From contig NZ_UATM01000032.1 in NCBI RefSeq assembly GCF_900454685.1, positions 124,001-188,000 of the forward strand: 64,000 nucleotides of DNA, in the 5' to 3' direction. The position numbers were made by a program, and so were the translations under genes. This document shows, in pieces, positions 46,612-50,417 of the stretch. The notes beneath the pieces were generated by a model. It searched no databases and was not told where the DNA came from. It saw only the letters and a list, made by a program, of their open reading frames with translations. Every line of letters begins with the position of its first letter. Position 1 is the first letter of the stretch. Source of the stretch: Peptoniphilus harei. GTDB lineage: Bacteria > Bacillota > Clostridia > Tissierellales > Peptoniphilaceae.

Positions 46612-46637
46612 AAAAAAGTGGAATTTTTCATCCACTT
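46612..46637 (-). terminator. terminator after the staygreen-like gene
   Basis: AAGTGGA (46616-46622) pairs with TCCACTT (46631-46637); T run follows on the minus strand. It closes the catalase-downstream operon. Confidence 0.8.
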
Positions 46638-46641
46638 AATC

Positions 46642-47115
46642 TTAAATATTTTTTAAAGACTTATAATCAAATCCTTTTCTATATTCTACAAAAGTCCCAT
46701 CTTCTTTATAGACATAATCTCTTAGGGTTTTTTCTACAAGTCTTATATTAAATTTTTCATCTTTGGAATTATAAATTTCCTTTACATAAATATCTGTATC
46801 AGAAAATTTTAATTTTCTCTCAGCCTTTACCATTGCAAGAAGAGAGTTTTGTAAATGTTCTTTAAAAATTATAAATCTTGCCTTTGTTGAAAATTTTGAG
46901 TTTTCATTGTCTAAAAAACATTCAAAAACAAAGTACTCATCTTCCCAATATCCAAAAACCTCATCCTTTTCCTCGCTCATTGTAAAATCATCTAGACTAT
47001 CAACTATGTCGACGAAAAGTTCTCCTGTCTCATCATCATGAGAAAGTATGTATTTCCTTTTTTTTAATTCTAAATCTTTTACACAATCTTTTTCGATAAC
47101 TTTTAAATTTTTCAT
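46642..47115 (-). CDS. possible staygreen-like domain protein
   Basis: A 157-residue soluble protein. KRKYILSHDDETGELFVDI resembles the start of staygreen proteins (RYTLTHSDxTGxLFLxI), followed by DEVFGYWEDEYFVFECFLDNENSKFSTKARFIIFKEHLQNSLLAM, comparable to the RDEVxAEW...HVHVSGG...FRYxIFxxELPxVLxA block. Plant staygreen is a chlorophyll Mg-dechelatase, and some bacterial homologues act on chlorophyll; what bacterial versions in anaerobes do is unknown. The ATG overlaps the ECF-like gene stop by 4 bp. The match is by eye and needs a profile search. Confidence 0.45.
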   Translation of the reverse strand: MKNLKVIEKDCVKDLELKKRKYILSHDDETGELFVDIVDSLDDFTMSEEKDEVFGYWEDEYFVFECFLDNENSKFSTKARFIIFKEHLQNSLLAMVKAERKLKFSDTDIYVKEIYNSKDEKFNIRLVEKTLRDYVYKEDGTFVEYRKGFDYKSLKNI

Positions 47116-47639
47116 GCTCTAACAATCCTTTTTGAAAAGATTTCTAAGGTATATCTAGAAGCAAGGTATCCAATAAAATATATTACAATTGTGACTATAA
47201 GAGTTGGAATAATTCCTGCTTGGACAAATCTAGATTGTGGTACAAAAATTTTTACTATAAAAAAGGAAGTCCACACGCCAAAAGCACTTTTTGTTGGTAC
47301 TGAATAGTATATATTTCTGTCCTTATTATAATTTTTAAAGACTATTAAGGTTAAAATATCACTTAAGACTCCGCTCGCTAGTCCAGCCAAGGCTCCAAAG
47401 ACAGAAAACCTAAGCATATAAATGGCATAGCACAAGGAAATTAAGGACACAGTTCCAATTTTTCTAGTTTTTAAAATTGTTGCTGTATATATAAAGGCAA
47501 AGGCTGGCGCTGTCGTAAGCACTCTTGATGATGGTATTGGTAAACTCAAGGATATTGTATAAAGAATTTTACCAACAACAATCATAATGGCCAGAGAAAG
47601 GCCCATTAAAACCCAATCTTTCACTCTAAATTTTTTCAT
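47112..47639 (-). CDS. ECF S-component-like membrane protein
   Basis: A 175-residue membrane protein with five or six spans. The N-terminal pattern (charged start, span, LPIPSSRVLTTAPAFAFIYTATIL, then LRFSVFGALAGLASGVLSDIL) fits substrate-binding S components of ECF vitamin transporters, possibly the folate/MptD-like group. No EcfA or EcfT is nearby, so it would use a shared module. AGGTGA precedes the ATG; it overlaps the staygreen-like gene and starts 1 bp after the radical SAM gene. Confidence 0.65.
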   Translation of the reverse strand: MKKFRVKDWVLMGLSLAIMIVVGKILYTISLSLPIPSSRVLTTAPAFAFIYTATILKTRKIGTVSLISLCYAIYMLRFSVFGALAGLASGVLSDILTLIVFKNYNKDRNIYYSVPTKSAFGVWTSFFIVKIFVPQSRFVQAGIIPTLIVTIVIYFIGYLASRYTLEIFSKRIVRA

Positions 47640-48623
47640 CTAATCACCTAAAACACAATAATTATCAAATTCTAAATAATCTCCAGTGTTTGCAAAAGCC
47701 CTGGCCCTACATCCACCACAAATATTATTAAAATTACAAGTTCTACACCTTCCCTTATAGGATGAAGGATCCCTAAGTTTTTTAAAGACTTCGCTATTAT
47801 TCCAAATATTATAAAAAGAATCTTCTTTTACATTGCCGGCCTCTACTTCTGCATAGGGACAGATATTTACCCTGCCATCGTAGACCAAGCTGCAATAACT
47901 TGTACCTGCAATACAAGACTTTTTAACTCTTGGGTCTAAATTTAATTTTTTAGCCAAGACAGTTGATTGGGGTGCACAAGTTGGCTTTATAAATAAGTCT
48001 GACTCATACTCCAAAACTTTTTTAATAGCTTCTGTGTACTCTTCCTTTGTTAGGTAAACATTTTCTAAGTTTTTCCCCCTGCCTGTCATAACTAAGAATA
48101 GAACATGGACTGAAGATGCTCCCAGCTCACTTGCAAAATCTAAAAGACTCTCTATTTCCTTCAAATTAATTTTAGAGATAGTGGTGTTAATCTGAAACTT
48201 AACCTCATTTTCCTTTAAAATCTCTATGCCTCTCATGGTTTCATCAAAGGCCCCCTCGTATCCCCTAAAGGAATCGTGAACATTTTTGTCCCTTGAGTCT
48301 ATAGAAATAGCAACTGATCTTATATATTTTTTTATAAGTCCTATGTTGTCTTCATTTATAAGGGTCCCATTAGTGCCCAAGCAAGTATAAAGTCCTAGGC
48401 TAGAAGCAAATTCTGCAAGTTCAAAAATATCCTCTCTCATTAGTGGTTCTCCACCACTTAATTTGAGCATATTAAAGCCAGCTTTTTTTATATCCCTAAA
48501 GACTTCCTTTGCCTCTTCAGTAGATAACTCATCTGACAAATCCACATCTTCTTTAGAATTCCTATAGCAGTGTTCACAGTAGAGGTTGCATTTTTTTGTA
48601 ACATTATAAGATACAATTTTCAT
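47640..48623 (-). CDS. radical SAM/SPASM protein of the AhbC/AhbD/NirJ-like group
   Basis: A 327-residue radical SAM enzyme with CNLYCEHC (C12, C16, C19) binding the SAM cluster, KLSGGEPLMREDIFELAEFASS, and a C-terminal SPASM domain with CIAGTSYCSLVYDGRVNICPY and CRTCNFNNICGGC for auxiliary clusters. The internal PTCAPQ stretch recalls heme-d1/siroheme-pathway radical SAM proteins (NirJ, AhbC, AhbD); peptide-modifying maturases are the alternative, but no short peptide gene is seen here. AGGAGG precedes the ATG. It lies 72 bp after the catalase gene, with a hairpin between. Confidence 0.8.
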   Translation of the reverse strand: MKIVSYNVTKKCNLYCEHCYRNSKEDVDLSDELSTEEAKEVFRDIKKAGFNMLKLSGGEPLMREDIFELAEFASSLGLYTCLGTNGTLINEDNIGLIKKYIRSVAISIDSRDKNVHDSFRGYEGAFDETMRGIEILKENEVKFQINTTISKINLKEIESLLDFASELGASSVHVLFLVMTGRGKNLENVYLTKEEYTEAIKKVLEYESDLFIKPTCAPQSTVLAKKLNLDPRVKKSCIAGTSYCSLVYDGRVNICPYAEVEAGNVKEDSFYNIWNNSEVFKKLRDPSSYKGRCRTCNFNNICGGCRARAFANTGDYLEFDNYCVLGD

Positions 48624-48645
48624 TTTTCTTATAACCTCCTAAAGA

Positions 48646-48669
48646 AATTGCCTCATAAAAGAGGCAATT
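48646..48669 (-). terminator. hairpin between katA and the radical SAM gene
   Basis: AATTGCCTC (48646-48654) and GAGGCAATT (48661-48669) form a perfect 9-bp stem. The U run on the minus strand is weak (TTTCTTT), so it may be a partial terminator allowing read-through. Confidence 0.6.
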
Positions 48670-48695
48670 CCAATATTATTTAATTTATTTTCTTA

Positions 48696-50417
48696 TCAAA
48701 GTAGATATGGGTCATCTTCCCAAGCAATTAATGTTGTTGGGTCTTCGGCATTTGTATCTCTTCCTTCAGGTGGAAGGTCTTTTGCAGATTCTGGTTCAGC
48801 AGGATCTGTTGGATAATTTAGGTCAGCATCTCTTGCATTTAATTTTTCCCATTCTTCACGAGATTTTGGCGCCTTCATTTCTAAATCAACTGTATCTATA
48901 TCAATTCCAAGTGCCTTTGCAACTCCCTTTCCATATTCTGGGTCAGCTGCATAGCAGTTTCTAATATATCTGTGCTTGATTTGCATAGTTGAGTCGCCCA
49001 TATTTCTTGCAGTATTTTCAAATAAAACTAATTTTTGCTCATCAGTCATCCTGTTGAAAAGCATACCTGGTTGAGTGAAGTAGTCGCTATCGTCTGCCCT
49101 GTAGTCATATCTCTTAGTTTCTCCACCCTTGTCATGTGGTATTTCTAGATCTGGATGATCTTGCCAGCCACCGTAAGAGTTTGGTCTGTAGTGGAGTTCT
49201 GCGCCCTTGTTGCCGTCTACTCTCATTTGTCCATCTCTGTGGTAGTCATGAGGATTCTTCACACCTTGTGGTGAGTTAACAGGAATTTGGTGGTGGTTAA
49301 CTCCAAGTCTATATCTTTGGGCATCTGAATAGAAGAAGGCCCTAGCTTGAAGAACCCTATCTGGTGAAAGTGCGATTCCTGGCACAATATTTGCCGGTGA
49401 AAAGGCAACTTGTTCAACATCTTGGAAGAAGTTGTCTGGATATTTATTTAAAACATATTCTCCTACAGGAATTAGTGGATAGTCTTCCTTTAGCCACATC
49501 TTTGTTAGGTCGAAAGGATTTGTTGGGTGCTTTTCAGCTTGTTCTTCTGTCATAACTTGGATGTACATCTTCCACTTTGGATAGTTGCCATTTTCAATAG
49601 CTTCATATAGGTCACGTCCAGAAGATTCCCTGTCCTTACCATTTACCATTTCAGCTTCTTGGTCAGTGTAGTTTAGGATACCTTGTTGGCTTCTAAAGTG
49701 GAACTTAACCCAAACTCTTGTGCCTTCTTCGTTATACATGGAGTAAGTGTGTGAACCAAATCCGTGCATATACCTAAAGGAAGAAGGAATACCCCTGTCA
49801 CTATTTATTATAGTCGTTTGTAGTAGTGATTCTGGTAGTGATGACCAGTAGTCAAAGTTTGTATTAGGAGATCTAAGGTGAGACTTAGGGTCTCTCTTAA
49901 CTGCGTGGTTTAAATCGATAAACTTCATTGGGTCTCTAAAGAAGAAGACAGGTGTGTTGTTACCAACTACGTCCCAGTTACCATCTTCTGTATAAAATCT
50001 AACTGCAAAACCACGAATGTCACGTTCTGCATCAGCTGCACCACGTTCACCAGCAACAGTTGACATTCTTGAGAAGACCTTGCACTTGTTTCCAACCTTG
50101 CTAAAAATTTTGGCCTTAGTGTATTTTGTGATGTCATGAGTTACTGTGAATTCACCCCAGGCACCCCAGCCCTTGGCGTGCATCCTTCTTTCAGGAATAA
50201 CTTCCCTGTTGAAGTGAGCATGCTTTTCAAATAACCAAAGGTCTTGGACTGAAAGGTGACCATCCATACCTGCAGTCATGGAGTCTTCGTCGTTGTCGAC
50301 TAGTTGTCCACCTGCACGTCTTAATTCTGGATCATCAACATTTTGATTCCTACTAGGTATTGGGTCCCCTGATTTATTTTTTGCTGTTGGGTCCATTTTT
50401 TTCTTGTCGTCTGCCAT
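48696..50417 (-). CDS. katA: heme catalase
   Basis: The 573-residue monofunctional catalase carries the distal His region [17 protein letters not shown], the Asn region [30 protein letters not shown], and the proximal heme ligand region [14 protein letters not shown] with Arg and Tyr. It splits H2O2 in the cytosol. Length exceeds small clade 3 enzymes because of N- and C-terminal extensions (the C-terminus is rich in Pro, Asp, Glu). Catalase is unusual in this group of anaerobes and needs heme, which they commonly cannot make. AAGGAGG precedes the ATG. Confidence 0.96.

Follow-up and report, generated by a model that had tools for sequence, protein, structure and literature searches.

Three genes directly downstream of katA, a heme catalase gene, in Peptoniphilus harei probably make up a heme-salvage operon, through which a coproporphyrin-type tetrapyrrole would be imported and finished to heme. 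The genes lie in a 64,000-nucleotide stretch of contig NZ_UATM01000032.1 (positions 124,001 to 188,000), here called the window. They encode a radical S-adenosylmethionine (SAM) enzyme with a SPASM domain (rSAM), an energy-coupling factor (ECF) S-component-like importer subunit (ECF-S) and a Staygreen-family protein (SGR). An earlier, sequence-only reading had described the three genes as tightly coupled; their coordinates and strand were confirmed, as were the 72 bp between katA and rSAM, the abutting rSAM and ECF-S genes and the 4 bp overlap of ECF-S and SGR. The wider suggestion made there, that the set imports and remodels a tetrapyrrole, is supported by profiles, fold, tree and neighbouring genes, from which we infer the joint function.

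The AhbD-type radical SAM enzyme

The window rSAM matches the Pfam families Radical_SAM (94 bits) and SPASM (37.5 bits), and its top NCBIfam models are NirJ2 (TIGR04055, 361 bits) and AhbD (TIGR04545, 321 bits). In a control comparison, NirJ2 was likewise the best model for Bacillota enzymes that neighbour AhbA/B and AhbC (L119, 599 bits; L118, 590 bits; L096, 466 bits; L112, 382 bits), and the best model for the Desulfovibrionaceae enzyme L134 is AhbD (427 bits). The radical SAM motif CX3CX2C is present at C12, C16 and C19. The full AhbD SPASM motif is given as CX20-33CX17CX36-37CX2CX5CX2CX17-35C (PMC10452713), and the window rSAM has exactly this spacing, at C216, C237, C255, C293, C296, C302, C305 and C323. 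The PTCAPQ stretch to which the sequence-only reading had drawn attention is present, and its cysteine is C216, which opens the motif. All 11 intact ECF-linked relatives from named genomes have the full motif, as do 32 of 34 other AhbD-like relatives scoring above 250 bits and none of 14 AhbC relatives.

In a tree of 37 chosen rows, the ECF-linked enzymes nest inside a mostly Bacillota AhbD group (97/93), and AhbC stands apart (100/99). AhbA/B-like hits were found in the loci of 30 of the 34 scored relatives without ECF-S, in 28 cases as a separate frame and in L128 and L139 within the rSAM's own long frame; none was found in L134, L135, L142 or L144. These 34 loci lack ECF-S and have an rSAM above 250 bits, the other 15 loci being lower-scoring or split and therefore uncounted. 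As 30 of 34 ECF-free relatives have AhbA/B-like hits, the window enzyme is of the AhbD lineage, with an importer replacing the upstream enzymes. It appears that an AhbD left its own pathway and became coupled to an importer, perhaps repeatedly or with one reversal.

The sequence-only reading had likened the enzyme to NirJ, AhbC and AhbD. The likeness to AhbD held in profiles, motif and tree, and the AhbC and NirJ identities were rejected, with scores of about 190-200 bits each and the full motif missing from the AhbC relatives. Also rejected was a peptide-maturase identity, which that reading had named in advance as an adverse outcome: maturase profiles gave ≤153 bits, far below NirJ2 and AhbD, and the tree and gene neighbourhoods place the enzyme with AhbD/NirJ2. 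AhbD acts on the propionates of iron-coproporphyrin III (PMC3942049), and we propose from its sequence features that the window rSAM is a heme b synthase that would use the same substrate.

The importer-like and Staygreen-family proteins

An AlphaFold model of the ECF-S-like protein, built from 12 rows, has six helices and a predicted local distance difference test (pLDDT) score of 81. Among the best nine rows returned by VIA-align, seven were ECF S-components or a chain of an ECF complex (151-166 residues aligned), with Z scores of 12.9-8.5, a range that the tool's own warning calls weak for helical proteins (under about 13). The top match was 5edl (Z 12.9, 166 residues aligned), and the remaining two rows were ammonia monooxygenase. 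Foldseek alone returned nothing at E 0.001 or better (best 5edl, E 0.41), and a search of PDB sequences with the ECF-S profile gave no hits. No Pfam or NCBIfam profile exceeded its cut-off for the window protein, the best Pfam family being ECF-ribofla_trS (E 0.078, 13.4 bits against a cut-off of 26.7). When ten members were compared with Pfam, Trep_Strep was matched by three (best E 1.4e-5) and ECF-ribofla_trS by three (best E 0.013). The earlier description of the protein as ECF S-like is thus borne out by the predicted fold, though by no profile over its cut-off. An AxxxA-type small-residue motif in helix 1 is a trait of ECF S-components. All 12 aligned proteins have A or G first and A fifth at this site, with strict AxxxA in four and GxxxA in the window protein. 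R39 and R59 are invariant in the alignment, and histidine is absent from the window protein and seven others of the 12. The energising T component of ECF transporters, EcfT (PF02361), is encoded in all 15 genomes tested. We propose that the ECF-S-like protein binds a coproporphyrin-type tetrapyrrole.

Across the class (a draw of 391 genomes), eight ECF-S homologues were found at E 1e-10, of which six were new and distant. One of the six (L173, in G466) lies directly before a catalase gene, and another (L177, in G451) is clustered with genes for a cytochrome c552-family protein, ResB, CcsA and an NIR_SIR-domain protein; a third, in G440, has neither heme-protein nor FMN_bind genes nearby. G466 and G451 also carry HemB and, elsewhere, two adjacent AhbD/AhbC-like genes. 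These contexts indicate that the wider ECF-S family accompanies heme proteins in some genomes, not only in those lacking heme synthesis, and its branches may transport different things, whether heme, its precursors or other molecules. L111 (4499-5218) and L177 (6867-8228) each encode, near the ECF-S gene, a membrane protein whose N-terminal stretch is of the heavy-metal type, and by eye the two look alike.

Such contexts are relevant to the idea that ECF-S imports finished heme, which the AhbD-like enzyme and SGR would then alter or break down, for instance freeing its iron or producing a modified heme. An ECF importer for heme exists, LhaSTA of Staphylococcus lugdunensis (PMC7299338), a Staygreen homologue removes the metal from tetrapyrroles (PMC8531759), and the ECF-S homologues beside catalase and cytochrome genes in G466 and G451 occur in genomes with HemB and AhbC/AhbD-like genes. 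However, the AhbD step on the propionates of iron-coproporphyrin III (PMC3942049) would be useless for imported heme b, and the window rSAM nests among enzymes with AhbA/B in their loci. We consider import of finished heme unlikely.

The third protein, which had been called staygreen-like by eye, matches PF12638 with 54.3 bits (gathering cut-off 27), and relatives in L110, L111, L113 and L048 score 82-92. Its predicted structure (pLDDT 88.8) matches a single PDB entry, 7y5y, at E 0.001 or better (E 1.1e-9, template modelling scores 0.71/0.74, 27% identity in the structural alignment). 7y5y is the solved structure of an Anaerolineae Staygreen protein, AbSGR-h, in which D34 and D62 are essential (PMC8531759). 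The equivalents of these catalytic residues are kept in the window SGR as D28 and D51, and are invariant in 17/17 and 10/10 aligned proteins. R26, Y28, H32 and T36 of AbSGR-h are also kept, and T29 is replaced by isoleucine. In two relatives (L110 and L113) E63 is replaced by glutamine, a change that left AbSGR-h active (PMC8531759). Staygreen homologues are described as widespread among non-photosynthetic bacteria (PMC8531759). No ferrochelatase (PF00762) was found in any of the 15 genomes tested, in which CbiK, CbiX and other heme importers were not searched for. Removal or exchange of a porphyrin metal by SGR would agree with its conserved residues and with the lack of ferrochelatase, and we propose that it is a porphyrin metal handler. 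No functional clue came from the surroundings of five standard Staygreen genes from elsewhere in the order, all in other families (L038, L039, L043, L046 and L047). One genome (G185) carries both a standard Staygreen gene (L047) and one of the type found here (L048), which makes a direct comparison possible.

As chlorophyll a and its derivatives are substrates of the characterized bacterial homologue (PMC8531759, PMC11006732), and the window SGR is a family member that retains the catalytic aspartates, the gene set might process magnesium tetrapyrroles of dietary or plant origin, such as products of chlorophyll breakdown, with SGR removing magnesium first. This is distinctly improbable: the informative neighbours are heme-protein genes, the rSAM is AhbD-like, the window SGR has isoleucine in place of T29 of the chlorophyll-active homologue, and pairs of rSAM and ECF-S without a Staygreen gene exist. 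SGR might instead perform no metal chemistry, and serve to deliver the product to catalase as a carrier of heme or porphyrin. Its gene is the last in a katA-headed set, and its absence from three pairs suggests that a metal step may be dispensable, but the two aspartates that are essential in AbSGR-h are invariant in both alignments, and we regard this role as improbable. A bolder proposal, that Staygreen proteins of non-photosynthetic bacteria are heme-salvage enzymes for porphyrin metal exchange, that the one here stands in for ferrochelatase by exchanging zinc, or another metal, in an imported coproporphyrin for iron, and that the plant dechelatase descends from such an enzyme, is doubtful.

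Recurrence, heme-protein neighbours and tetrapyrrole synthesis

The order was surveyed in 249 genomes, including the window genome (G000). Staygreen was found in 28, and 12 have an rSAM match of E ≤1e-80. The intact trio of rSAM, ECF-S and SGR genes is present in eight, seven of them of the same family (G000, G135, G139, G143, G144, G037 and G052) and one of another (G185). Pairs of rSAM and ECF-S occur in G175, G176 and G245, which have no Staygreen match anywhere in their genomes, and G003 has a canonical AhbC-AhbD-AhbA/B set. A scan of a genome collection with a ten-row rSAM alignment returned 61 loci. Nine contain the intact trio (four Peptoniphilus, two Anaerococcus, HGW-Firmicutes-7, Alkaliphilus sp. 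NP8 and Clostridium brassicae), and two (L114 and L115) contain rSAM and ECF-S only. The trio of P. timonensis (L109) was counted as intact as only the first few rSAM residues differ. A broken copy was found in an Anaerococcus metagenome-assembled genome that carries HemB and HemC (G051; L147, 3125-4415); there the rSAM is split, one radical-SAM cysteine is changed, the ECF gene is lost and the remnant is joined to SGR. The two surveys overlap, with nine trio, pair or broken loci being the same records, and together they yield 14 intact trios and pairs, 11 of the order and three from further named genomes, including Alkaliphilus and Clostridium brassicae. As the same gene order recurs in eight of 249 genomes, in two families, and in the three named genomes, the arrangement is not due to chance.

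katA or a cytochrome c assembly gene adjoins nine of the 14, and the outcome that the sequence-only reading had set against itself, a trio found mainly without heme proteins, did not occur. katA is directly upstream in six of the seven intact trios of the family and also in the broken copy; the seventh (G037) has no adjacent katA and a catalase elsewhere in its genome. Within the genus, the trio is present in five of the seven genomes with katA and none of the seven without, a modest link (Fisher p 0.021, kinship ignored). Other heme-protein contexts were found in G185, where resB and ccsA precede the trio, in G176, where a multiheme cytochrome gene, resB, ccsA and a YgbA_NO gene precede the pair, and in G175, where a cut ccsA and the same YgbA_NO gene precede it. 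Thus, of the suggestion that the set serves catalase, the adjacency to katA held and an exclusive tie did not: cytochrome c assembly genes adjoin the set in these three genomes, two congeners (G133 and G141) have katA alone, and the trio is not tied to catalase alone. The gene between ccsA and rSAM in L093 (10877-11218) and L094 (9657-9962) belongs to the YgbA_NO family, the nitrous oxide-stimulated promoter family.

The remark that such anaerobes often cannot make heme agrees with the gene content of the carriers. HemB (PF00490) and HemC (PF01379) are both absent in ten of the 11 genomes with intact trios or pairs, so the known route to tetrapyrroles is closed to most carriers. The window genome (2.17 Mb, 99.8% complete, 3.5% contamination) has no match to PF00490, PF17805 or PF01379, and does not have the gene content of the siroheme-dependent pathway (ahbABCD); AhbA/B (PF17805) was found in one of the 15 genomes tested, G003, which has the canonical set. 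An AhbD-like enzyme in a cell unable to make its substrate needs an imported one, which the ECF S-component could give it.

The layout of the locus is given in Table 1. Downstream of the trio are a NUDIX gene and cysS. In all seven katA-rSAM gaps that were folded (the window, L031, L032, L033, L035, L036 and L037, the last adjoining the broken copy) a hairpin of -14 to -19 kcal/mol was predicted; the stem sequences vary and a long T-run is absent. In G133 and G141, where katA is followed by NUDIX and cysS and the trio is absent, a hairpin with a T-run is seen by eye 3' of katA. This difference fits a leaky terminator that would separate katA from the trio, and the gap hairpin could be an attenuator that sets the ratio of catalase to heme-supply genes. 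At the proposed operon end, terminator-like sites were in no clear excess in the pattern scan (4 found, 2.9 expected). By eye, a similar palindrome precedes the trio of L034, a locus without adjacent katA. The congeners L097 and L098 carry katA-NUDIX-cysS but lack the trio, and they offer a clean presence/absence contrast at the same site.

Table 1. Features of the katA-trio locus (window coordinates)
Feature	Position	Strand	Basis
katA, heme catalase, 573 aa	48696-50417	minus	Pfam Catalase (579 bits) and Catalase-rel
rSAM, AhbD/NirJ2-type radical SAM/SPASM enzyme, 327 aa	47640-48623	minus	NCBIfam scores, cysteine spacing, tree
ECF S-component-like importer subunit, 175 aa	47112-47639	minus	six-helix AlphaFold model, structural matches
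SGR, Staygreen-family protein, 157 aa	46642-47115	minus	PF12638 match, fold match to 7y5y
Hairpin within the katA-rSAM gap	48644-48671	minus	folding; possible leaky terminator or attenuator (putative function)
Terminator-like hairpin, proposed operon end	46616-46637	minus	pattern scan

Proposed heme salvage and known systems

Under the heme-salvage reading, the ECF S-component, powered by an ECF module encoded elsewhere in the genome, would import a coproporphyrin-type tetrapyrrole released by other organisms. SGR would work on the metal centre, most likely stripping a wrong metal (zinc or magnesium) from the imported porphyrin or aiding its exchange for iron. AhbD-type decarboxylation would then yield heme b, which would be loaded into katA or cytochromes. 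We infer the transport, the exact molecule imported, the reaction and, most of all, what SGR does. In the literature, a Leucobacter is reported to use coproporphyrins and zinc methylphyrins as growth factors (cited in PMC11139205 and PMC6868719).

Several observations weigh against this reading. The window rSAM falls under both NCBIfam cut-offs (500 bits each), as does L112 with its AhbA/B/C neighbours (328 bits for TIGR04545, 382 bits for TIGR04055), and a single clade of ECF-linked rSAMs was rejected (p 0.001) because L112 sits inside it. In the stretch read, five of the 14 trios and pairs have no heme-protein neighbour (G037, G245, L110, L111 and L113), with L110 beginning at a contig end so that its upstream side lies beyond the contig. 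G133 and G141 have katA with neither the trio nor HemB, so the trio is not required for katA, and by our count 53 of the 61 catalase-bearing genomes of the family are also without it; other heme sources must therefore exist. G052 has HemB and HemC in addition to the trio, and G451 and G466 may make heme themselves. HemB is absent in 180 of the 249 genomes of the order, and its absence thus shows need, not specificity. The three pairs have no Staygreen gene, so the SGR step is not always needed. Another Leucobacter, when given coproporphyrins, did not respond (PMC6868719). Finally, three distant ECF-S homologues (L174, L175 and L176, in G406, G361 and G310, respectively) are near FMN_bind genes, and the substrate of that branch may differ.

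The FMN_bind neighbours, and the weak, below-cut-off similarity to the riboflavin S-component profile seen in three of the ten ECF-S members compared (best E 0.013), would suit a set that adjoins catalase without a shared function, made up of a flavin or vitamin ECF importer and an rSAM with another substrate. However, the same gene order is found in two families and three named genomes, with catalase or ResB/CcsA beside nine of the 14, and such an accidental grouping is very improbable.

Staygreen joined with AhbD or an ECF importer was not found in the open-licence literature searched, which has partial coverage, and no mention of Peptoniphilus was found in one part of it. The literature passages covered name no cellular role for Staygreen in non-photosynthetic bacteria, and the locus gives the family a concrete, testable one beside heme proteins. 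The proposed short route to heme would bypass the upstream parts of both the classical and the siroheme pathways by importing the porphyrin of others and finishing it with an anaerobic enzyme. Strains of acnes that produce porphyrins are reported (PMC7913060), and porphyrin cross-feeding on body surfaces becomes testable. If the proposal is true, it carries a warning for annotation, as AhbD on its own need not imply a heme pathway.

The window rSAM resembles known AhbD/NirJ2 enzymes in length, in the radical SAM and full SPASM spacing, in its best profiles and in tree position. It differs from those systems in that the window genome lacks AhbA/B, most carriers lack HemB and HemC, an ECF S-component is coupled to it and its scores fall under the cut-offs. 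LhaSTA and the set described here are alike in ECF-type S-component import of a heme-type molecule, shown for LhaSTA and proposed here. Unlike LhaSTA, the set has a lone S-component gene, without adjacent T and A genes, and is tied to an enzyme of the heme-synthesis type; the window S-component is free of histidine, and is likened to LhaS by description and not by sequence alignment. The coproporphyrin-fed Leucobacter is likewise a heme-dependent bacterium fed by the coproporphyrins or zinc methylphyrins of another. It is an actinobacterium according to the citing papers, and the likeness drawn here is one of physiology. The window SGR is set apart from AbSGR-h by only 27% identity, the isoleucine for T29, its heme-protein gene context and its putative substrate, but shares with it the fold, the profile, the catalytic aspartates and R26, Y28, H32 and T36.

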